DNA of 54,034 bases from NCBI GenBank assembly GCA_937888365.1, contig CALBFA010000101.1:1-54034 (forward strand). Direction: 5' to 3'. Source of the stretch: an uncultured Fidelibacterota bacterium (GTDB taxonomy: Bacteria > Fidelibacterota > UBA8477 > JABMPR01). Shown here piece by piece: positions 3,333 through 19,104 of this stretch; positions within the stretch are counted from its first letter, which is position 1, and each line of letters starts with the position of its first letter. The notes under the pieces were generated by a model, which saw only the letters and a list, made by a program, of their open reading frames with translations, was not told the DNA's origin and made no database searches. Made by a program: the position numbers and the translations under genes.

Positions 3333-4310
3333 CTATTTCGAGACTTCCCCTTCGCTACTTGTCGCAAGCGTATCTCTCATGGATGTATCGGCTTGAATGT
3401 TTTGCATTCTATAATAATCCATAATACCGAGATGTCCTTTACGAAAGGCTTCTGCAATAGATTTTGGGATTTCGGCTTCAGCCTCAACAACTTTTGCCTT
3501 CATCTCAACGACGCGTGCCTTCATCTCTTGCTCGTTGGCAACAGCCATAGCACGACGCTTTTCGGCTTGAGCTTGAGCAATATTTTTATCGGCATCCGCT
3601 TGATCAATTTGTAAGGTAGCGCCAATATTTTTACCGACGTCAACATCGGCGATATCAATGGATAGAATTTCAAAGGCGGTACCGGAGTCCAAACCTTTGC
3701 CCAATACGTTTTTCGAAATAATATCAGGATTTTCCAACACAGCTTTGTGCGAAATTGCCGAACCAATACTACTTACAATACCTTCGCCAACGCGGGCAAT
3801 AATGGTTTCTTCACCCGCTCCACCGACAAGTCTATCAATATTGGCTCGAACGGTTACGCGTGCGACACAAAAAAGCTGAATCCCGTCTTTTGCCACTGCG
3901 GATACTCTTGGCGTTTCAATAACGCGAGGAATAACCGACATTTTAACAGCATCAAGAACATCTCGACCTGCTAAATCGATGGCAGCTGCGCGTTGAAACG
4001 GTAAATCAATAGAAGCTTTGTCAGCAGAAATCATAGCGAAAATGACACGCTCGACATTTCCTCCTGCAAGCAAGTGAGCTTCCAAGACATCCGTTTCGAT
4101 ATCTAAACCTGCTTTTCTGGCACTAATTAATGCTCCCACAATAAGTTGTGGCGATATGCGCCTCAATCTCATTCCGATGAGCGTAAATAAACTTACATAC
4201 ACTTTTGATGCTGCTGCACTAATCCATAATCCTACTGGTATTAACCAGACAAACAGGAAAATAAAAAGCATAGCACCAAAAAGAAAAATAATCGTTGTTG
4301 GTGTTGTCAT
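3333..4310 (-). CDS. floA: Flotillin-like protein FloA (325 aa)
   Basis: Bacterial flotillin-like scaffold (UPF0365 family) that organises membrane microdomains. It has an N-terminal hydrophobic segment (about residues 5-32), then the highly conserved FloA core with [19 protein letters not shown], an SPFH-like domain with [24 protein letters not shown], and an alanine/glutamate-rich coiled coil from about residue 230. Length matches the family (~330). ATG at 4310 follows AAGGGGACG. It lies directly downstream of an NfeD-type protease, the classical nfeD-floA pairing, and upstream of a small membrane gene. Identification is secure. Confidence 0.95.
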
Positions 4311-4349
4311 ACGCGTCCCCTTAATTTATGATTTTGTCTCATTTGATTT

Positions 4350-5693
4350 TTATATTTTCTCAACAAAAATTCGATTGCCTTTAACTTTTAGGACTCGAAT
4401 TTCACTATTTTTTTCAATGTATTCACCGTCGGTTAAAACATCTACACGTTTGCCAGAGAATTTAGCTGTCCCCGCAGGACGTAAATCAGAAATGGCCGTT
4501 CCTGAAGAACCGACTAAATCTGAAAGTCCAATATCGTTGGAATATCCTTCTTTTTGCGTTTCTTCAACATTGAGAGCAATTCTTTTCCAGAATTTCGTTT
4601 TGCTCATGTTTTTGATGAGATAAATCGTACCGACGATGCCACCTATAACCGCGATTGTAACCCCTAATAAGGCAGATTGAATATCAACATTTGTCGGAAT
4701 GGTGGGTAGCATCATGAGAAATAATCCATATAATACGACAATTGTTCCTGCAATACCTGTGACACCAAATCCTGGAATCACGAATGCCTCCACAGCCAAA
4801 AGAATGATACCCACTAAGAAAATCAAAAGTTCATTCATTGACGCTAAATCTGCAATAATAGAAGTGCTGAAAAATAAAGTTAATGCAATCACAGCAACGG
4901 TGCCTCCCACTCCCCAACCCGGACTTTGAACTTCGAAAATAAGGCCTAGAAATCCCAAGGTCATGAGTAAAGAGCTCACAATAGGATTCGTTAAAAATCT
5001 TACGACATATTCTGACCATGTTGGTTCAACGTGAATAATTTTTTCATTTTCAAGACCAAAGTGTTTGAGTAATGCATCAAACGAATCCAGCTCATAATCT
5101 ACCATATTGTATTTTAAAGCTGTTGTCGTGCGTAGCGTCACCAGTTTGCCACTTTTTGCACCTTCAACATCGTTGATAAAAAGGGTATCGCCATTTGCCA
5201 GAACAAGTGTATCAATATCAAGTGTTTCGTCAACCATGGCCATTGCAATATCACCATTCCGACCCTTTGCTTCTGCAGTGGATGCCATTTCTTCTCGCAT
5301 ATAGGATTGAGATTTTTCACTCGCTTTGTTGCTTTGGCCATCAACAACAGTTGTTGCACCCATGGTTGCTCCTGTCCGCATGACAATCGTGTCGCAGGCC
5401 AATGATATCAATGATCCAGCTGATATTGCGCGGGAATTTATAAAAGCAATTGTCATAATGTCAGACTCTAGTAAGGCGTCTCTCATCATAGTTGCAGCAT
5501 CAACGCGTCCACCAAAGGTATCAATATCAAGAATGATTGCTTTTCCGCCTTCAGCATTTTTCTCGGGAATTGCTCGCTCAAAAAAGTGCGCCAAACCCAT
5601 ATCAATGGTGCCTTCAACTTTCATGACATAAACTTGAGAAAATATAAGTGTGGGTAATATTAATAGCACCCATAAAGTTGATCTTAGTTTCAT
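4350..5693 (-). CDS. NfeD-family membrane serine protease (447 aa)
   Basis: Full-length NfeD1b-type protein. It has a signal peptide (residues 1-20), a ClpP/SppA-like protease domain (about 22-215) with LDIDTFGG and the RAISAGSLISLACD segment holding the candidate nucleophile (Ser91 or Ser94), four to five membrane segments (about 235-350) and a C-terminal NfeD OB fold (about 385-447, ending GNRIFVEKI). Such proteases act on membrane proteins and work with flotillin/stomatin partners; here floA follows after 39 bases. ATG at 5693 has an AGGTGAG site. Upstream (5694-5809) is a TATATT -10-like element at 5739-5744, but I find no convincing -35. Confidence 0.93.
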   Translation of the reverse strand: MKLRSTLWVLLILPTLIFSQVYVMKVEGTIDMGLAHFFERAIPEKNAEGGKAIILDIDTFGGRVDAATMMRDALLESDIMTIAFINSRAISAGSLISLACDTIVMRTGATMGATTVVDGQSNKASEKSQSYMREEMASTAEAKGRNGDIAMAMVDETLDIDTLVLANGDTLFINDVEGAKSGKLVTLRTTTALKYNMVDYELDSFDALLKHFGLENEKIIHVEPTWSEYVVRFLTNPIVSSLLMTLGFLGLIFEVQSPGWGVGGTVAVIALTLFFSTSIIADLASMNELLIFLVGIILLAVEAFVIPGFGVTGIAGTIVVLYGLFLMMLPTIPTNVDIQSALLGVTIAVIGGIVGTIYLIKNMSKTKFWKRIALNVEETQKEGYSNDIGLSDLVGSSGTAISDLRPAGTAKFSGKRVDVLTDGEYIEKNSEIRVLKVKGNRIFVEKI

Positions 5694-9037: not shown

Positions 9038-9988
9038 TTATTTATTTAATAATTTTGGCCAACGTTTATGAAACCAAAAATATTGTTCCGGTTTTTTGAT
9101 AATTTCAACTTCAAGTAAATTCATAAGTTTTTGAGTCAATTCAATGTCCCACTCTTCGCTAGGTTCAGTTGGCAACGTATAATCAACTTTTTCCCAATGA
9201 ATCGTATATGTTCCAAGATTTTGATTGACGGATAAAAATACGAGTTCAGGATTAACACGTTTTATGAGCTCAACAGCGCCACGTGGTGAGGACGATGGGA
9301 GCCCGAAAAACGAAATCTTGAGTGAATTTTTTCCTCGATGTTGATCGCCAACAACAGCTAGTTGACCTTTCTCAACCAAAGTGTTAGAAATCGCTCCTAA
9401 ACCTGCCCATGAATTTATAAGGTAGAGACCTTTTCGTATTCGCATCCATTCCAAGGGTGCGTTAACCAATGGATTTTTTTGGATGCGATAAATTGATGCT
9501 GAACCTTTCGACATCATGGCAACCCAGCGACCTGCTATTTCCCAACTACCAAAATGTCCCGTAAAAAAAATCACGGGGATATTTTGCTTTTTCTTCTCAA
9601 TCAAATAGTCTTTAAAACCATCTTCTGCTTCAACTATAGATTCAATTTTTCTATCTGAAAGGAACCAAAGTTTTAGTGTCGCAAAAAACATCTCACCCCA
9701 ATGTTTATAGACATCCCTAATTACGTTATCTCGTTTACTCTTTTCCCAATGGGGGAAAGCAAGAGACAGATTACTCTCGACTAATTTTCGTCGAGTTGGA
9801 AAATATTTGGCCATAACAGCACCGATACCGCGACCAATGCGCCAAACGATTGACCATGGGATGATGAAAAGAATCAGCGTAAAATTAATAAATACAATAA
9901 ATTCAAACGAATATCGAATCCAAGTTAAAACGCTCGTTTTTTCAGGAGCCTTCTTACTTGTAGTTATTTTTTGTTTGCTATCTGCCAT
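9038..9988 (-). CDS. lpxL: Lipid A late acyltransferase, LpxL/HtrB family (316 aa)
   Basis: Membrane-bound acyl-ACP-dependent acyltransferase that adds a secondary acyl chain to a lipid A precursor. It has a hydrophobic anchor (about residues 28-50, FEFIVFINFTLILFIIPW), the H(X)4E-type catalytic motif in GHFGSWEIAGR, and the VVGDQHRGKN and FFGLPSSSPRGAVELIKR blocks of the family. The C-terminus FWFHKRWP is also characteristic. It begins 15 bases after rseP. Which acyl position it modifies, and whether the acceptor carries Kdo, cannot be read from sequence, so the symbol denotes the family only. Confidence 0.88.
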   Translation of the reverse strand: MADSKQKITTSKKAPEKTSVLTWIRYSFEFIVFINFTLILFIIPWSIVWRIGRGIGAVMAKYFPTRRKLVESNLSLAFPHWEKSKRDNVIRDVYKHWGEMFFATLKLWFLSDRKIESIVEAEDGFKDYLIEKKKQNIPVIFFTGHFGSWEIAGRWVAMMSKGSASIYRIQKNPLVNAPLEWMRIRKGLYLINSWAGLGAISNTLVEKGQLAVVGDQHRGKNSLKISFFGLPSSSPRGAVELIKRVNPELVFLSVNQNLGTYTIHWEKVDYTLPTEPSEEWDIELTQKLMNLLEVEIIKKPEQYFWFHKRWPKLLNK

Positions 9989-10003: not shown

Positions 10004-11191
10004 TTAGAATCTTGAAAGATCATTAATGGTTACAAATAAAATTAAGCCAAGTAACAGTAACATCCCAACTTGCTGAATACCAAGTTTGACTTTAATGGGA
10101 AGTGGTTTTCGAAGTACTGATTCAACAATAATAATAATTAAATGACCACCATCTAAACCAGGGATGGGCAAAATATTGATAAATGCAAGATTCACGGAAA
10201 TGATGGCCATAAAATATAGAATGTCAAGCCAACCCTGACGCGCGACATCGCCTGCCATTTTTGCAATCATGATGGGGCCGCCAACCTGGTCCATACTTGC
10301 ATTTCCCGAAATGAGACTCCAGAAAGATCGAGCCATCAAGGTTCCATGCATAACAGTCGTTGTAAAACCCAGTGTTATAGATTCTATAAAGGCAGCGGGA
10401 CGTTGATCAACAACGCGTCCAATACCCAGCATGCCTACCGTTTTAATGCCATCAAATGTTGGGATTTGTTCTTTTACAACCGCGATAGAATCCGAATAAT
10501 TTTGACCGTTTCTTGTCCATGTAATAAATGCATTTTTATGAGGATATGTTTGTATTATAGTAACCAGTTCGTCCCAATTCGACAGCCTTTCATTATTGAT
10601 AGATGTAATTACATCACCAATTTGAACGCCAACTTTTTCAGCTGGGAATACAACACGCTCTTCAGTCGTTGTAAGGCTTCCAACTTCAGTTGTTTCGCTA
10701 GGGATTGGAATGCCGCTTGAATAAATAATGATGACGAAGAAAATGAATGCCAAAATGGTATTCATAATAACACCACCCGAAATCGTCAAGAATTGTTGCC
10801 ATTTCTTTTTACTGGCAAATTCCCAAGGTTTTCCTGTGAGTTCTCCAGTCAAGGATTCATCAATCATTCCCGACATTTTTACATAACCACCGAGAGGTGT
10901 CCAGCTTATGGTGTATTCCGTATCACTCGACTTTGGGTTTTTGCGCCTAAAACGATATTCAATTTTTGATGCCTTTAAAAGTTTCTGTAAAAACCATGGC
11001 ACAAACATGGTAACCCAAAGTCCGTCCATTTTGTTTTTCAACGCTAAAAATTTAGGAGGGAAACCGATGGAAAATTTTTCGATGCGTATCCCCACCATTT
11101 TAGCCGCAATAAAATGACCCCATTCGTGCACGAGTATTAAGATACCTAAGGTTAATATTGCTGCGATTATTGTATACATTAAATCAATCAT
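10004..11191 (-). CDS. rseP: Site-2 intramembrane metalloprotease RseP (395 aa)
   Basis: Zinc protease that cleaves membrane-spanning anti-sigma factors or leftover signal peptides. Zinc motif HEWGH is in the first transmembrane helix (about residues 22-27), followed by GGYVKMSG, one PDZ domain (about 185-260, VGVQIGDVITSINNE) and the C-terminal NILPIPGLDGGHL motif carrying the third metal ligand. A single PDZ matches the shorter form of the family. It directly follows dxr (9-base gap), the same pairing seen in many bacteria. Start ATG at 11191; a second in-frame ATG lies 12 bases downstream. No sigma-E/anti-sigma pair is in the window. Confidence 0.95.
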   Translation of the reverse strand: MIDLMYTIIAAILTLGILILVHEWGHFIAAKMVGIRIEKFSIGFPPKFLALKNKMDGLWVTMFVPWFLQKLLKASKIEYRFRRKNPKSSDTEYTISWTPLGGYVKMSGMIDESLTGELTGKPWEFASKKKWQQFLTISGGVIMNTILAFIFFVIIIYSSGIPIPSETTEVGSLTTTEERVVFPAEKVGVQIGDVITSINNERLSNWDELVTIIQTYPHKNAFITWTRNGQNYSDSIAVVKEQIPTFDGIKTVGMLGIGRVVDQRPAAFIESITLGFTTTVMHGTLMARSFWSLISGNASMDQVGGPIMIAKMAGDVARQGWLDILYFMAIISVNLAFINILPIPGLDGGHLIIIIVESVLRKPLPIKVKLGIQQVGMLLLLGLILFVTINDLSRF

Positions 11192-11200
11192 AAATTATTG

Positions 11201-12343
11201 TTATTCCTTGTTTTGGATAAATTGTTTTGCCCATTCCTCATTCCTAAGAATATCATCAAGAGAAGGATGAGCTATAAAATAATGTTGTGAAATTGCTTCT
11301 TGAATCAGCTCAGGAATTTCCGTAAAGCGAATTTCTTCTTTTAAAAATCTGTAAACGGCGAACTCATTCGCGACGTTTAGTACTGCTGGCGTTGTACCCC
11401 CTCGATGCAAGGCATCATAGGCTAATTGAATACATGGAAACCGTTCATAATCGGGTGCTTCAAACGTTAACTCACCGATCTTTATCAAATCTAAAGGTTC
11501 CCAATTTGTCGCCACATGTTTTGGATAGGTCAACGCGTATTGAATTGGTATTTTCATGTCAGGTAAGCCAAGTTGCGCTTTTACGGAGCTATCGACGAAT
11601 TCCACCATAGAATGTATAATACTTTGGGGATGCACAATAATGTCGATTTTTTCCGCAGGCATGTCAAAAAGCCATCGTGCTTCAATAACTTCAAGCCCTT
11701 TGTTCATCATCGTTGCGGAATCAATCGTAATTTTATTTCCCATCGCCCAATTAGGGTGTTTCAATGCCTCTTTCACGGTGATGTCTTTAAACGTTTGCAG
11801 TGGTCGTTTTCGAAAAGGGCCACCAGATCCCGTCACAATAAGGCGTTTTATGTCATCCATATTTTCGCCGACAAGTGATTGCCAAATAGCACTGTGCTCA
11901 CTATCAACGGGATAAAGTTTCGTTTTATGTTTTTCAAGCAGACGATAAATTAAATCCCCTGCCATCACGAGACTTTCTTTGTTCGAAAGCGCTACATCAA
12001 CACCATTTATGATGGCTTGAATCGTGGGTTCCATACCCGATGAACCGACTATTGCATTTATCATTAAATCTGGAACATCGCGACTTGCCAATTCCAACAA
12101 ACCGTCACGACCACCCAGTACTTCAACATTTGACAGTTCTTTTTTTAAATAGGAGACTTGGGTCTCATCGCCAATGGCAACGACTTTGACATTAAACTCC
12201 TTGGCAAAAACAATAAGTTGATCCACTTGACGATGGGCTGACAATCCATAAATCGAAAATAGTTCAGGATTTTCTCGTATAACGTTTAACGCATTAACGC
12301 CAATGCTACCCGTTGCGCCTAAAATTGAAATAGATTTTTTCAT
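11201..12343 (-). CDS. dxr: 1-deoxy-D-xylulose 5-phosphate reductoisomerase (380 aa)
   Basis: Second step of the MEP isoprenoid pathway: NADPH-dependent rearrangement and reduction of DXP to MEP. The N-terminal dinucleotide fold has GATGSIG; substrate and metal residues lie in NKESLVMAG, PVDSEHSAIWQ and TGSGGPFR; the C-terminal helical domain is complete. Its ATG directly abuts the TAA of the preceding gene, so translation is probably coupled. The pathway supplies the isoprenyl units that uppS, first gene of the same operon, extends. Confidence 0.97.
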   Translation of the reverse strand: MKKSISILGATGSIGVNALNVIRENPELFSIYGLSAHRQVDQLIVFAKEFNVKVVAIGDETQVSYLKKELSNVEVLGGRDGLLELASRDVPDLMINAIVGSSGMEPTIQAIINGVDVALSNKESLVMAGDLIYRLLEKHKTKLYPVDSEHSAIWQSLVGENMDDIKRLIVTGSGGPFRKRPLQTFKDITVKEALKHPNWAMGNKITIDSATMMNKGLEVIEARWLFDMPAEKIDIIVHPQSIIHSMVEFVDSSVKAQLGLPDMKIPIQYALTYPKHVATNWEPLDLIKIGELTFEAPDYERFPCIQLAYDALHRGGTTPAVLNVANEFAVYRFLKEEIRFTEIPELIQEAISQHYFIAHPSLDDILRNEEWAKQFIQNKE

Positions 12344-13009
12344 TTAATTCAAGTCTTCCTTGAATGTATAATGAAATGACAATTGAATCCCTAACCCTTG
12401 CTTAATAAATCGAGTTGTGATTTTTGTTTGCCATTTTTCATTTAAATCCATTTGAGTCGAAACGTCTATAAATCCATAATCAATTCTTTGGCTTTTAAAG
12501 GGTGATGTTTTATCAGCAAGGTAGCGCTGCATCAATACACCACCTTTTAGATTGAGCTTGAGAAAGCTAATACTTTTGCGATTGGAGGCTGAAATCGATA
12601 AAGAGCGAACCAAGCCAATTTTATCAAAATAGGCATAACTCTGATGCAGTCCGTAAATCGTTGATTCCGTATTATAGCTAGCACCAAGTCCATAATAATA
12701 ATTGAGCAAATTATCAACGATCTGCCCTGTTTCTGCACTAAATGAAAATTGAGGATAAGGTGAAAAATAGAGCTGGGCTCCTACTGCTAACTCGTTCTTT
12801 GACAATCGATTGGAGGTAAATGCGATATTTGAAGTACTCGCTTCATTGATTAAGGCATCAGAATTAAGCTGCCCTGCAAGGAGTAAAAGTGTTGATTTAC
12901 CATTATTCCCAGATAAAAGCGCTCCGGCTAAATCGATAGAATAACACACGTTCATTAGTGATAGAAAGACGACAATCGAGGATAAATAACCTCTAGCAGA
13001 GGATTGCAT
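12344..13009 (-). CDS. Unknown exported protein in the lipid A operon, possible small beta-barrel (221 aa)
   Basis: I do not recognise a family. Residues 1-24 form a signal peptide (FLSLMNVCYS). The rest lacks further hydrophobic helices and alternates polar and aromatic residues (YYYGLGASYN, SLSISASN, IDYGFIDVSTQMDL, LGIQLSFHYTF), as in outer-membrane beta-strands, with F close to the C-terminus. It sits between lpxA (2-base gap) and dxr (no gap), so it is firmly part of the operon. An outer-membrane barrel or surface-lipid accessory role is inferred from these two facts only. Confidence 0.7.
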   Translation of the reverse strand: MQSSARGYLSSIVVFLSLMNVCYSIDLAGALLSGNNGKSTLLLLAGQLNSDALINEASTSNIAFTSNRLSKNELAVGAQLYFSPYPQFSFSAETGQIVDNLLNYYYGLGASYNTESTIYGLHQSYAYFDKIGLVRSLSISASNRKSISFLKLNLKGGVLMQRYLADKTSPFKSQRIDYGFIDVSTQMDLNEKWQTKITTRFIKQGLGIQLSFHYTFKEDLN

Positions 13010-13011
13010 GA

Positions 13012-13797
13012 TTATTTACCTCGAATGATTCCTCTAGGACTACTTTGTATAAATTGAATAATATTTAGAACTTCAGGTGAATTTTTGTCTTTTTGTTTTA
13101 ATATTTCTACAGCTTCTCTCACATTATAAGTTGAGCGGTAAATAAGTTTATAGGCGCGTTTAATGTCCCGAATTGTTTCGGTACTCATGCCTCTCCGTCT
13201 GAGTCCGACGGCGTTTAAACCGTTGAAAGCGAGTGGATATTTTGAGGCTCGGATATAAGGCGGAATATCTTGAGAAATGCGAAATCCTCCCGCAACAAAT
13301 GCATGATCGCCAATATGACAAAATTGATGTATCCCAACCATCCCGCCGATGATAACATGGCTACCGATAACAACATGGCCCCCTAAGTTACATGAATTTG
13401 CGATGATGACTTGGTCGCCAACGATACAATCATGAGCGATATGTGCATACGCCATAATGAGGCAATTTTTACCGATGACCGTTTTGCGTCTGTCAGTTGT
13501 TCCCCTATGCACCGTAACATATTCACGAATGACAGTATTATCACCAACATGCGTCGTTGTGTCCTCGTTTGCATATTTTAGATCCTGAGGTGCTTCACCA
13601 ACGACGGCACCTTGAAATATTTTTACATTTTTCCCAAGCGTTGTGTCGCGTCCGATGTAAGCATTCGCTTTTATGATCGTTCCATCACCTATGGTAACAT
13701 TTTCTTCAATGATGACATGAGGACCAATAATGATATCGTTGCCAAAAAGTACGTTATTTTCAGAAATAATGGCACTAGGATGTACTTGATTTTCCAT
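13012..13797 (-). CDS. lpxA: UDP-N-acetylglucosamine O-acyltransferase LpxA (261 aa)
   Basis: First committed acylation in lipid A synthesis: transfer of a hydroxyacyl chain from ACP to the 3-OH of UDP-GlcNAc. The first ~190 residues are hexapeptide repeats of a left-handed beta-helix, with the catalytic histidine in AHIAHDC and the family block FVAGGFRISQDIPPY; the C-terminal helical domain starts at FNGLNAVGLRRRG. Length is as in E. coli (262). Its ATG overlaps the TGA of lpxC/fabZ by one base. Confidence 0.97.
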   Translation of the reverse strand: MENQVHPSAIISENNVLFGNDIIIGPHVIIEENVTIGDGTIIKANAYIGRDTTLGKNVKIFQGAVVGEAPQDLKYANEDTTTHVGDNTVIREYVTVHRGTTDRRKTVIGKNCLIMAYAHIAHDCIVGDQVIIANSCNLGGHVVIGSHVIIGGMVGIHQFCHIGDHAFVAGGFRISQDIPPYIRASKYPLAFNGLNAVGLRRRGMSTETIRDIKRAYKLIYRSTYNVREAVEILKQKDKNSPEVLNIIQFIQSSPRGIIRGK

Positions 13798-15203
13798 CAG
13801 CGATTGACCACTGACGCCATTAAATCAGCCTCAATTGCTACAATTCCATCAACATACCCAACACCGCTCATTTTTGCCGTGCCTAAACGGAATTTTACAA
13901 GTTTAACTTCAAACGTTATCGTGTCACCAGGTTCGATAAGTTTTCTAAATCTCACATTATCTATTGCGGAGAAAAATACGAGTTTGTCTTCAGGATTTGC
14001 GACGGCATTGAGTAAAAGAATACCGCCAGCTTGCGCCATACTTTCAATCGATAAAACGCCAGGCATTACTGGTTTTCCTGGGAAATGACCTTGAAAAAAT
14101 GGTTCATTGACGGTTACATTCTTGATAGCTGTGATGGTTTCACCCGGTATCAAATCAATGACGCGATCTATTAATAAAAAGGGATAACGGTGAGGTAGAA
14201 TCCGTTTAATGGCTTCAATATCAAAGAAAATCTTGCGTTTGCGCGGCTTCATTTTAAAGCGTTGAGCCAGAATTTGTTTTTCGTATTCCTTTTTTAGCAA
14301 TTTAACAAGTTCAACATTCGATTTATGACCACTGCGTGCGGCGATAAAATGGCCTTGAATAGGGGTCCCTAAAAGGGCGAGATCACCAATCATATCTAAA
14401 ATTTTATGGCGTACAGGCTCCGTTCTGTAGCGGAGTTCTTTCCCATTCAAAATTCCATTTTCACCCTGAACCAAGTCACCTTTAATCTGAAATAGATCCC
14501 TTAGTCGATTTAGTTCTGAGTCCTCAATCTTCCTATCTATCATGACAAGCGCTGTTTCAACGGATCCGCCCTTAATGAGACCTTGTTCTTTAAGAGCTTC
14601 GACTTCATGCAAAAAACAAAACGTGCGAGCAGGGGCAAATTCGTTGATAAAATCCTGTTCCAACGAATAGAAACTCATGTATTGCGTTCCCAACGATTCA
14701 AGTTTATAATCAATCATAAATGTGATTCTAAAATCATTTGAAGGTAGCACATGAATATCGACACCTTTTTCAGGATCAGAATAAGTAATCGTTTTATCGA
14801 TAACGAGATATTGTCGTTCTAATTCTTGCTCGACGATTCCAGCCTCAATTAAAATATCGACAAATTGCTTTGCGCTTCCGTCTAAAACAGGTGGTTCTTT
14901 ATTATCTAATTCGATAATGATATTGTCAATTTGAAGGCCTGATACAGCCGCCAAAACGTGTTCTACTGTATGGATGCGAACTTCGTCCTTGGCGATTGTT
15001 GTTCCTCTCGAGATATCAACAACATGATCTATGTCTGCTTTTATAAGGGTAGGTGTTTCGACGTCGGTTCGTAAAAATTGAATCCCACTTCCTGCTTCAG
15101 CAGGTTGAAACGTTAGAGTCGTTTGTACACCTGTATGCAATCCGACACCGGAAATAGTTGCGGATTTTTTGATCGTTCGTTGAAAGTCTGATTTTGTCTG
15201 CAT
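13797..15203 (-). CDS. lpxC/fabZ: Fused UDP-3-O-acyl-GlcNAc deacetylase / hydroxyacyl-ACP dehydratase (468 aa)
   Basis: The N-terminal part (about 1-300) is LpxC, the zinc deacetylase that commits the cell to lipid A: HTVEHVLAA carries the first zinc histidine, HKILDMIGDLALLG the second histidine and aspartate, and RSGHKSN the catalytic histidine. The C-terminal part (about 320-468) is FabZ, which dehydrates hydroxyacyl-ACP: HRYPFLLIDR, then GHFPGKPVMPGV with the active-site histidine and ESMAQAGG with the glutamate. The two enzymes compete for the same hydroxyacyl-ACP branch, so fusion fixes their ratio. The fusion is known from Bacteroidota and relatives and is a useful lineage marker. Confidence 0.97.
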   Translation of the reverse strand: MQTKSDFQRTIKKSATISGVGLHTGVQTTLTFQPAEAGSGIQFLRTDVETPTLIKADIDHVVDISRGTTIAKDEVRIHTVEHVLAAVSGLQIDNIIIELDNKEPPVLDGSAKQFVDILIEAGIVEQELERQYLVIDKTITYSDPEKGVDIHVLPSNDFRITFMIDYKLESLGTQYMSFYSLEQDFINEFAPARTFCFLHEVEALKEQGLIKGGSVETALVMIDRKIEDSELNRLRDLFQIKGDLVQGENGILNGKELRYRTEPVRHKILDMIGDLALLGTPIQGHFIAARSGHKSNVELVKLLKKEYEKQILAQRFKMKPRKRKIFFDIEAIKRILPHRYPFLLIDRVIDLIPGETITAIKNVTVNEPFFQGHFPGKPVMPGVLSIESMAQAGGILLLNAVANPEDKLVFFSAIDNVRFRKLIEPGDTITFEVKLVKFRLGTAKMSGVGYVDGIVAIEADLMASVVNR

Positions 15204-15215
15204 CTCTAGCCTTTT

Positions 15216-16229
15216 CTAAATTTTCCCACTATCTGATTCTTTTTTCAGATGTGTATAAATCTTTGGTAGTTTTTGAATCATAGCTTCAATTTTTAGCATC
15301 TCACGATGGGATCGAGCTGGAAATCCACTTACCATAGTATTATCTTCGATGTCTTTTGTAACGCCACCTCGTGTAGCAATGGAAACATGATTTCCAACGT
15401 TAACATGGCCCACAATACCGCTTTGTCCGCCCATTTGAACATGGTTTCCAACGGAGGATGAACCTGCGATACCTACTTGAGCCGTTATAAAACAATAATT
15501 TCCCACTTTTACATTGTGGGCAATATGAATAAGATTATCCAGTTTTGTATGATGTCCAATAGATGTCGAGCCTATTGTGCCTCTATCTATTGAGCAGTTC
15601 GCACCAATTTCAACGTCATCGCCTATCACAACATTACCCGTTTGAGGGATTTTTCTAACACCCGTTTCAGTCGGTAAAAAACCGAATCCATCTTCTCCAA
15701 TGCTGGTTCCCGCATGAATGATGCATGCACTACCGATGACAACATCGTCATAAATTGTAACGTTTGGATGAATAATTGTATTGTCTCCAATTGAAACATT
15801 TTGACCAATTGACACATTATTGAAAATGACTGCCTTTTCGCCAATGAAGGAATTCTCGCCTATGGAGACAAATGCTCCGATATGAGCTGTTTCATGGACA
15901 GATGCTTTTGCATGTATATCGCATAAATTGTGAATACCCACTGGATAGCTAGTTTGCTTCTGGTTCAAGATATATAGAGCTTCTACCATTGCTGCATAGG
16001 CATTTTTAACCCAAAGGATATTCTGGAATTTGACATCCATATTTTCTTGAACAATCAGCGCTGATGCCCGTGTTCCCTCGACATATTTGGCATATTTAGC
16101 ATTGGAAAGGAAGGTAATTTCGCCTTCTATCGCATTTTGAATTTCCGAAAGCTTATAAATAAGAAAATTAGGGTCACCCGAAATTCGAGCCCCTAATTTC
16201 TCAGCTAATTGTCCTAGGGTTATGGCCAA
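15216..16229 (-). CDS. lpxD: UDP-3-O-acylglucosamine N-acyltransferase LpxD (337 aa, TTG start)
   Basis: Adds the N-linked hydroxyacyl chain to the LpxC product. It has an N-terminal uridine-binding domain (about 1-100), a hexapeptide-repeat beta-helix (about 105-300) and a short C-terminal helix; the catalytic histidine is in NLIHIAHNVKVG. Translation must start at TTG (16229): no ATG lies upstream in frame and the residue aligns with the normal N-terminus (xITLGQLAEKLG). It starts 3 bases after the skp stop without a clear ribosome binding site, so coupling to skp translation is likely. Confidence 0.95.
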   Translation of the reverse strand: MAITLGQLAEKLGARISGDPNFLIYKLSEIQNAIEGEITFLSNAKYAKYVEGTRASALIVQENMDVKFQNILWVKNAYAAMVEALYILNQKQTSYPVGIHNLCDIHAKASVHETAHIGAFVSIGENSFIGEKAVIFNNVSIGQNVSIGDNTIIHPNVTIYDDVVIGSACIIHAGTSIGEDGFGFLPTETGVRKIPQTGNVVIGDDVEIGANCSIDRGTIGSTSIGHHTKLDNLIHIAHNVKVGNYCFITAQVGIAGSSSVGNHVQMGGQSGIVGHVNVGNHVSIATRGGVTKDIEDNTMVSGFPARSHREMLKIEAMIQKLPKIYTHLKKESDSGKI

Positions 16230-16232
16230 TAT

Positions 16233-16739
16233 TTATTTTCTATTGAGCTCGATTAAAACTTTTTCGGTTAAATCGAAACCATCTTTTGCGTAGAGTATAT
16301 TTCCTGCTACAGAATCAAAAATAAAATCGTATCCATTTGCTTCACCTACAGCTTTAATAGCTTTATTCACTTTTTCTAAAACAGGATCAGCTAAAGTTTG
16401 TTGCTTTTGATAGAATTCACCTTGGGGACCGAGTTTATTCACTTGAAAATCTTGAAGTTTTTGACTGAGGACCATCATTTCATTTTCTTTGGTTTTTTTA
16501 TTCACATCCGTCATTAAAAACTTTTGACGCTCGTAATCTTGTTTAAGACTATCAAGTTGACCCGCCATTCTATAATATTCTTGCTCTAATTTTTTACCTT
16601 CAATTTCAAGCTTATTTTGAGCTTCAATAAATTCGTCGAATTGAGACAAAATATACTCGGAATTTACATACCCAAATTTTTGACCGAACACATTGCCAGC
16701 CATTAAGGTGATTATTGCGATAATTAGTAGTTTTTTCAT
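16233..16739 (-). CDS. skp: Skp/OmpH-type periplasmic chaperone (168 aa)
   Basis: Signal peptide (residues 1-19, AGNVFGQ) followed by the FGYVNSEYILSQ start of the mature Skp/OmpH family, a long charged coiled coil (about 40-110) and a C-terminal strand region. Skp trimers hold unfolded outer-membrane proteins and hand them to the BAM complex. Position between bamA and lpxD is the classical arrangement. Confidence 0.93.
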   Translation of the reverse strand: MKKLLIIAIITLMAGNVFGQKFGYVNSEYILSQFDEFIEAQNKLEIEGKKLEQEYYRMAGQLDSLKQDYERQKFLMTDVNKKTKENEMMVLSQKLQDFQVNKLGPQGEFYQKQQTLADPVLEKVNKAIKAVGEANGYDFIFDSVAGNILYAKDGFDLTEKVLIELNRK

Positions 16740-16770: not shown

Positions 16771-19104
16771 TTAAAATTGTTGTCCAAAAATAAAATGTAT
16801 TTCTGGAGATGTTAATCCATTTGGCTCTAGACCGAGTTTCTCTCTATCAAAGCCCCAGCCGAAATCTACTCCAATTAGGCCTAATGGTGGCATAATAATT
16901 CGGGCTCCAAAACCAGCCGAACGTTTTAAATTATTGATATCAATTTTATTCAAATCATCCCAAACGTTACCAGCTTCTGCAAAAGCAAGAAGGTACATCA
17001 TTGGATTAGGACTGAGTTGAAAGCGTGCTTCAAGGCTGTATTTCATACTTGCGACACCGCCAAAATATCCACCAATGGAGCGTTCAGGATATCCGCGTAA
17101 AGCCGATCCCCAAATGAGCCCTGCACCACCCATAAATAAATATTCATCGTATGGGATGATATACTTATCACCTTCTTTTAAGGATTTAAGATAGCCTGAT
17201 TCAAAATAACTCTTTAACGCGAGTTTATCTTTCCATAATGGTGTGTACCAATCAAGGGAAACATTTTGTTTAAAGAATGTTTCATTTCCGCCAAAACCAC
17301 TATACTTGGAAACCAAAGATAAAACGCTTCCGCCTGTTGGAAATTCCGGAGCGTTTCGAGAGTCACGTGTAATCGTCTGAGTTAAACTTATGCCCGATGT
17401 GTGCTCAATGTGGGCAGGATTAATTCTATTAAAAGTTGCCCAGTCATAAACTTTTGTCGTGTCATAATCATTGGTCATAGCTTGAAAAGCCCAACGGCCT
17501 CTAAAATAATTATCAGGGAATTTAAAACGGCGACCAAATGTTACAGAGCCACCCCTTGTATGAATATCATAAGGAGTATATGAGGTTGTCGACCCGAATG
17601 GATTAAATGTGTCGTTCCGAGAGCGATCCGAATCAAAAACACTGAAACCAACGAGGTTTGGCGTATTCATAAGCCAAGGTTCAACGTAGGAAATCGACGA
17701 TGATTGATAGCCGCCAGCTCTTTGAAAGCTAAATGATAATTGCTGACCAGAGCCGCGTAAATTCGGAAATTGGACGCCTACCGTACCGATAAAGCCATCA
17801 CGCTCACTATAACCAGCGGAAGCCGTAGCTGTACCTGTATGCTTCTCTTCAACAGTAAATTCAAGATCTATTTCCTCTTGACTAACGGGAACAACATCGG
17901 GGATAACATTAGCGAAATAATTAAGGATATAGACATCTCGTTGACTTCGCATAAGCGCCGTCCGGTTAAACAAATCACCAGGATAAACGCGCAATTCTCT
18001 TCGGATGACATTGTCCCATGTTTTATCATTGCCGACAATATTAATGCGGCGAATTTTTACAGGATTCATTTCGACAATTTCAACAGCGATGCTTACAGAA
18101 TCCGCCGATACAGGCACTTCAATTGGATTGACCTGGCAATAGAGATAGCCTTTGTCCATGTAGGCACCACGAACATATTGTTCAATATTCATCATCAATT
18201 CTTCAGAGTTATAAACATCTCCCTTTTCGATGCCTAAACCGCTCAGGATCATTTTATTGTCAAAAAGTGTATTCCCGCTGACAGTAATATCGCTGTAATG
18301 GTATTGTGGACCTTCATTGATTTCGATATCGAGGTACATCTTTTTATTGTCTTCGCCATAAGAAATCGTGTCATAAACAACTTCTGCATCGCGATACCCT
18401 AAACTACGATATAAATTCTCGATTGAGCGCATATCTTTTTCAAGATTTTCATCATTGTACTCATTCTCGACCCATATTTTCCACCAACGCTCTTCTTTTA
18501 CGTTTTCCATCGCTTTTTTAAGTTTGCGAGCAGATACTTCAGTATTCCCCTTAAAACTTATCTGATAAATTTTAACTTTTTCGTTTTCTGTAATTGTAAA
18601 AGTAATACCTCTAGAATTTTCTTTTTCTCCTTCAAACGTTGCAGGAACGACTTCTGCCAGAAGATACCCTTCTTTGAAGTATAGTTCTTTAATGAGACGC
18701 TGTGCCTCATAGACAACATGAGGTGATAGCACCTGCCCCGTTAAGAGGCCCAGTTCTTCTTCAATATCTTCAACTTTAATTTTTTTATTGCCTTTTAAAA
18801 CAACTTTGTCAAGACGAGGATATTCTTCAACGCTTATAATGAAGTAAACTCCCTCGGCTGTTTCTCTATCCATCAAGATTCTGATATCAGAGAAAATCTT
18901 CATGTTCCAGAGTTGGCGTATAGCATCGGCAATAATTTCTGTGTTTGCATACTCACCAACGCGCAAACCAGAGTTAATTTTTACGACATCTTCAGAAGCA
19001 GTTTTAACGCCAATTACTTCGACTGATGCAATCTTAACACGAGCTTGTTGCTGTGAGAATAATGTGGTTATCGATAAGATAACTAAGAATAATAACTTTT
19101 TCAT
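16771..19104 (-). CDS. bamA: Outer-membrane assembly factor BamA (777 aa)
   Basis: Core of the BAM machine that inserts beta-barrels into the outer membrane. Signal peptide 1-18, then about five POTRA domains (residues ~22-420; conserved starts such as VEVIGVKT, VVLKGNKKIK, ISFKGNTEVS, ITVSGNTLFD, INIVGNDKT) and a 16-strand barrel (~430-777) ending HFIFGQQF, a normal BamA terminal strand. SALRGYPERS contains the VRGF-like loop 6 motif of Omp85 proteins in RGY form. No frameshift or missing domain is seen. It follows uppS by 15 bases. Confidence 0.96.
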   Translation of the reverse strand: MKKLLFLVILSITTLFSQQQARVKIASVEVIGVKTASEDVVKINSGLRVGEYANTEIIADAIRQLWNMKIFSDIRILMDRETAEGVYFIISVEEYPRLDKVVLKGNKKIKVEDIEEELGLLTGQVLSPHVVYEAQRLIKELYFKEGYLLAEVVPATFEGEKENSRGITFTITENEKVKIYQISFKGNTEVSARKLKKAMENVKEERWWKIWVENEYNDENLEKDMRSIENLYRSLGYRDAEVVYDTISYGEDNKKMYLDIEINEGPQYHYSDITVSGNTLFDNKMILSGLGIEKGDVYNSEELMMNIEQYVRGAYMDKGYLYCQVNPIEVPVSADSVSIAVEIVEMNPVKIRRINIVGNDKTWDNVIRRELRVYPGDLFNRTALMRSQRDVYILNYFANVIPDVVPVSQEEIDLEFTVEEKHTGTATASAGYSERDGFIGTVGVQFPNLRGSGQQLSFSFQRAGGYQSSSISYVEPWLMNTPNLVGFSVFDSDRSRNDTFNPFGSTTSYTPYDIHTRGGSVTFGRRFKFPDNYFRGRWAFQAMTNDYDTTKVYDWATFNRINPAHIEHTSGISLTQTITRDSRNAPEFPTGGSVLSLVSKYSGFGGNETFFKQNVSLDWYTPLWKDKLALKSYFESGYLKSLKEGDKYIIPYDEYLFMGGAGLIWGSALRGYPERSIGGYFGGVASMKYSLEARFQLSPNPMMYLLAFAEAGNVWDDLNKIDINNLKRSAGFGARIIMPPLGLIGVDFGWGFDREKLGLEPNGLTSPEIHFIFGQQF

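Follow-up and report, generated by a model that had tools for sequence, protein, structure and literature searches.

A small exported protein, predicted to form an outer-membrane barrel, keeps a fixed place upstream of dxr in the Fidelibacterota

A stretch of 54,034 nucleotides from an uncultured Fidelibacterota bacterium (GenBank assembly GCA_937888365.1, contig CALBFA010000101.1, positions 1 to 54,034) was analysed and is referred to throughout as the window. It contains a run of genes on one strand, in the order bamA, ompH, lpxD, lpxC-fabZ, lpxA, X, dxr, an rseP-like gene, an lpxL-like gene and a Sua5/YrdC-like gene, in which X is the exported protein considered here (Table 1). There are 2 bases between lpxA and X and 0 bases between X and dxr, all three being on the minus strand. 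A purine-rich GAGG can be read a few bases 5' of the ATG of X, within the end of lpxA, and AAGGAAG can be read 5' of the dxr ATG, within the end of X. The numbers of promoters and terminators counted within the operon were not in excess of those in shuffled sequences. The lpxL-like gene after rseP is present in the window and in its order, and was not seen in the loci of other families. LpxC and FabZ are a single fused protein in the window; they appear to be separate in the genus labelled g8, described below.

Table 1. Features of X and the surrounding operon in the window.
Feature	Position	Strand	Basis
X, 221-aa exported protein	12344..13009	minus	predicted 10-stranded outer-membrane beta-barrel with N-terminal helix; 0 Pfam/NCBIfam matches
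Putative signal peptide of X, approximately residues 1-24	12938..13009	minus	hydrophobic N-terminus and helix 3-21 in model; putative cleavage site
N-terminal helix of mature X, residues 36-48, possible plug	12866..12904	minus	AlphaFold2 model; equivalent in L075 is helix 32-50
Predicted ten-stranded barrel of X, residues 60-216	12362..12832	minus	AlphaFold2 model
dxr, downstream neighbour of X	11201..12343	minus	Pfam DXP reductoisomerase domains
lpxA, upstream neighbour of X	13012..13797	minus	Pfam Hexapep and Acetyltransf_11
lpxC-fabZ fusion	13797..15203	minus	Pfam LpxC and FabA-like
lpxD	15216..16229	minus	Pfam LpxD
ompH/skp-like periplasmic chaperone	16233..16739	minus	Pfam OmpH
bamA	16771..19104	minus	Pfam POTRA x5 and Omp85
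rseP-like site-2 protease	10004..11191	minus	Pfam Peptidase_M50 and PDZ
lpxL/htrB-like lipid A acyltransferase	9038..9988	minus	Pfam Lip_A_acyltrans

A search for dxr in 199 genomes of the phylum identified the gene in 191. The DNA upstream of dxr was read in more than 100 loci, representing 75 of the 76 genera, with the remaining genus (g67) covered by a profile match. An exported ORF, mostly of approximately 190 to 260 residues, is directly upstream of dxr in 73 of the 76 genera, one of which is without lpx genes, and in the loci of the phylum it often overlaps the start of dxr by 1 to 7 bases. The copy is broken by a frameshift in one genus (G123). X is absent from two genera: that of G024, with 46 bases from lpxA to dxr, and g8, a streamlined genus with genomes of approximately 0.7 to 1.0 Mb, where the four loci read have lpxA immediately ahead of dxr. 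A profile made from 70 members matches X in 148 of the 199 genomes and 67 of the 76 genera, at about one match per genome, and this match adjoins dxr on the same strand in all 42 genomes for which coordinates were compared. The genera that the profile misses, among them most of family f6 and parts of family f14, nevertheless carry an ORF in this position.

Some of the loci have peculiarities of their own. Four genera, belonging to families f3 and f8, carry one more gene ahead of X, an ORF of approximately 250 to 280 aa between lpxA and X (L029, L035, L039, L040, L043, and L104); that of L029 resembles a lipoate/biotin ligase-type protein. The frameshifted X of G123 (L079) is either decayed or misassembled, with the profile matching fragments in two reading frames. 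In L053 (G054, 4083-4463), the frame of X extends upstream of the called ATG and there is a plausible signal peptide in the extension. No ATG, GTG, or TTG start was found in this extension, and an unusual start codon is possible.

Among counterparts of X within a sister genus the median dN/dS is 0.16, versus 0.03 to 0.05 for dxr, lpxA, and rseP, and the median identity is 45%, versus 80 to 88% for the neighbouring genes. X is under purifying selection and is evolving approximately three times faster than its neighbours. It is clear from this dN/dS of about 0.16 and from the position kept in 73 of the 76 genera that X is a real gene. Surface proteins often change fast. No invariant or catalytic-looking residue was found in the X family, the best conserved residues being P, N, and G. 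These are structural, located at turns (including a tight turn) and in strands.

X has no match in either Pfam or NCBIfam, and this is because it changes so fast that the two general family libraries scanned miss it. Within its own family, a tblastn search with X found only X itself, and blastp gave no link from the window protein to the rest of the collected set. The sole match outside its own genome in the genome collection, L002 from the Bacteroidetes, was rejected as a chance match to a peptide of a DivIVA-like protein. A viral scan with dxr found nothing, sequence and profile searches of solved structures with X returned nothing significant, and no papers describing X in this operon or phylum were found. 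X belongs to no named family among those that could be tested, and resembles other small outer-membrane barrels.

The two large groups of sequences, one from across the phylum and one from within the order of the window, are related, with an hhalign probability of 95%. Comparison of the phylum group with f6 g7 gives a probability of 74%, and with f14 one of 98%, the latter value being inflated because the phylum group itself includes the f14 sequences. The window protein is a singleton, its profile-profile link to the family having an E value of about 0.02, which is not significant. A joint family profile made without the window protein scores 10.1 bits against it, with none of 2000 shuffles of the mature chain scoring as high, and the match is collinear over most of the mature length. 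The reversed sequence of X scores 7.5 bits with this profile, thus part of the 10.1 bits reflects general barrel-like composition. The window protein likely, if not provably, shares descent with the family, by its position, length, signal peptide, and predicted topology. Its place within the family is one that we infer from position, topology, and the weak collinear profile match.

The hydrophobic N-terminus of X, with a helix at residues 3 to 21 in the model, has the appearance of a Sec signal peptide. AlphaFold2 modelling of X with the family alignment gave a pLDDT of 82 and a pTM of 0.72, and that of a distant member, L075, gave a pLDDT of 90 and a pTM of 0.84. The two proteins are approximately 10% identical and their models have the same order of elements, the signal helix being followed by another N-terminal helix and then by ten strands, although the models are not fully independent since the alignment used for the window protein contains the family. 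The number of strands is even in both models, as would be expected of a closed antiparallel barrel. Foldseek searches of the PDB matched outer-membrane barrels of many kinds, natural or designed, with E values of 1e-5 to 1e-6. The TM-scores by query length are approximately 0.25 to 0.45, and the matches are to generic outer-membrane barrels; for L075 the top match is the helix-plugged FapF.

Alternation of hydrophobicity between the inner and outer faces of the predicted strands has a contrast above the shuffle mean, yet does not beat the shuffles, 330 of 2000 reaching the observed value for X and 699 of 2000 for L075. It is therefore from the models and the fold matches that the case for a membrane barrel is drawn. 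Outer-membrane proteins often have F, L, I, or Y as their C-terminal residue. This holds for 54 of 94 members, and the window protein ends, after its last strand (GLGIQLSFHYTF), in KEDLN.

Most of a preliminary description of this gene is borne out by these results. It placed X against dxr and 2 bases after lpxA, and the coordinates, strand, and gaps are exact; it considered X to be retained in the core operon, where 73 of the 76 sampled genera have an exported ORF; and it described an exported protein of no known family with a beta-barrel-like mature chain, for which there are an apparent N-terminal signal peptide, empty results from both family libraries, ten modelled strands, and Foldseek matches to membrane barrels. 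The checks that it proposed returned a barrel from structure prediction, no known family from profile searching, and an lpxA-X-dxr order that holds across the phylum.

The reading preferred here, at a probability of roughly 0.55, is that X is a small constitutive channel or a structural barrel of the outer membrane that is co-expressed with the BAM and Lpx genes, and is not a lipid A enzyme. We infer its outer-membrane location, its insertion by BamA, and its channel or structural role. X would be the local representative of a family of small barrels, hitherto undescribed, that spans the phylum and has a fixed place in bamA-ompH-lpxD-lpxC/fabZ-lpxA-X-dxr-rseP. It would be exported via its signal peptide, handed to BamA by the Skp-like chaperone, and inserted as a ten-stranded barrel, with the N-terminal helix lying inside the barrel or beneath it, where it might act as a plug. 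Production of X would be coordinated with that of the outer-membrane assembly machinery, and X would serve as a small channel, present constitutively, or as a structural barrel. A bolder and quite tentative suggestion is that this is a new phylum-specific family of ten-stranded outer-membrane barrels, fast-diverging and locked into the operon, with a job in outer-membrane building that is independent of lipid A.

Two genera bear upon the relationship between X and lipid A. Neither LpxC nor LpxB was found in any of the 9 genomes of genus g17, while both are present in the sister genera. In g17, the two loci that were read (L112 and L113) have the arrangement bamA-ompH-ORF-dxr, where the ORF encodes an exported protein of 214 aa. 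This is the positional counterpart of X with weak homology to it, 12 of 2000 shuffles scoring as high with the joint profile and hhalign not being significant. Genus g8 keeps lpxA, lpxC, lpxB, and dxr (L117-L120), and X was not found in the five g8 genomes searched. As an observation on the genus itself, the capacity to make lipid A seems to be gone from g17 (G040, G044, and seven further genomes). A Pfam search for LptD was discarded as uninformative, because the model misses most of the lpx-bearing genomes of the phylum.

The preliminary description had linked X to surface-lipid assembly, and this part of it does not sit well with g17, where the ORF is kept without LpxC and LpxB (in two loci and with weak homology), nor with g8, where lpxA, lpxC, and lpxB are present without X, nor with a family that has no invariant residue. 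Such a link could take the form of an outer-membrane component of lipid A or LOS assembly or modification, for example a deacylase or palmitoyltransferase barrel like PagL or PagP, or a partner of the LPS translocon. PagP, PagL, and LpxR are small barrels, and X is a small barrel within a run of lpx genes. Against this, in addition to the two genera and the lack of an invariant residue, PagP, PagL, and LpxR are absent from the best-listed 50 structural matches of either model. A role as a lipid A enzyme or translocon component is therefore less likely than that of a small channel or structural barrel, and is on the whole improbable.

Outside of lipid A, the next alternative after the channel or structural reading is that X serves the BAM or chaperone machinery as an accessory barrel, aiding the assembly of outer-membrane proteins or signalling stress to the RseP-like protease encoded downstream. 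The cluster is flanked by bamA, ompH, and rseP, and in g17 the counterpart of X stays with bamA, ompH, and dxr after the lpx genes are gone, although a core assembly factor would not be expected to diverge to 45% identity beside neighbours at 80 to 88%, and g8 and g5 are without X. This role is slightly less probable than one in lipid A. Least probable of all is that unrelated exported genes of fast turnover occupy the place in different clades and that the window ORF is a replacement and not an orthologue. In its favour, BLAST finds no relative of the window protein, even within its own family, and both this protein and the g17 ORF are only weakly linked to the rest by sequence. Against it, the position, the length, the signal peptide, and the topology of ten strands are all alike, the relationship between the two large groups is clear, and the leave-out profile match is collinear.

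Conserved at one place in the outer-membrane operon across almost the whole phylum, X is probably a core part of the envelope of a large and mostly uncultured group. The contrast between g17, with the ORF kept and no lipid A genes, and g8, with lipid A genes and no X, is a natural test of which envelope parts co-occur.

Comparison with known systems places X nearest to the small outer-membrane barrels. DUF6588 (PF20230) is matched by 1 of 70 members of the X family (E value of 7e-6), whereas no match was obtained with the window protein or with 20 other members scanned one at a time. PagP, PagL, and LpxR are like X in being small barrels, X being encoded among lipid A genes; however, the conserved catalytic polar residues of these enzymes have no equivalent in X, which has no invariant column, the positional counterpart persists without LpxC and LpxB in g17 (with weak homology), and none of the three is among the 50 best-listed structural matches per model. 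The FapF polypeptide transporter, which is 12-stranded with a helical N-terminal plug, resembles L075 in having an N-terminal helix before the barrel. X differs from it in having two fewer strands, no sequence match, and no amyloid genes among the immediate genes of the neighbourhoods read. The OmpA transmembrane domain, OprF, NspA, OmpX, and OpcA differ from X, which has ten predicted strands and an N-terminal helix, no sequence match to them, and TM-scores of approximately 0.3 to 0.45, but they are among the best structural matches of the X models and share with X a signal peptide and a compact antiparallel barrel with short turns.
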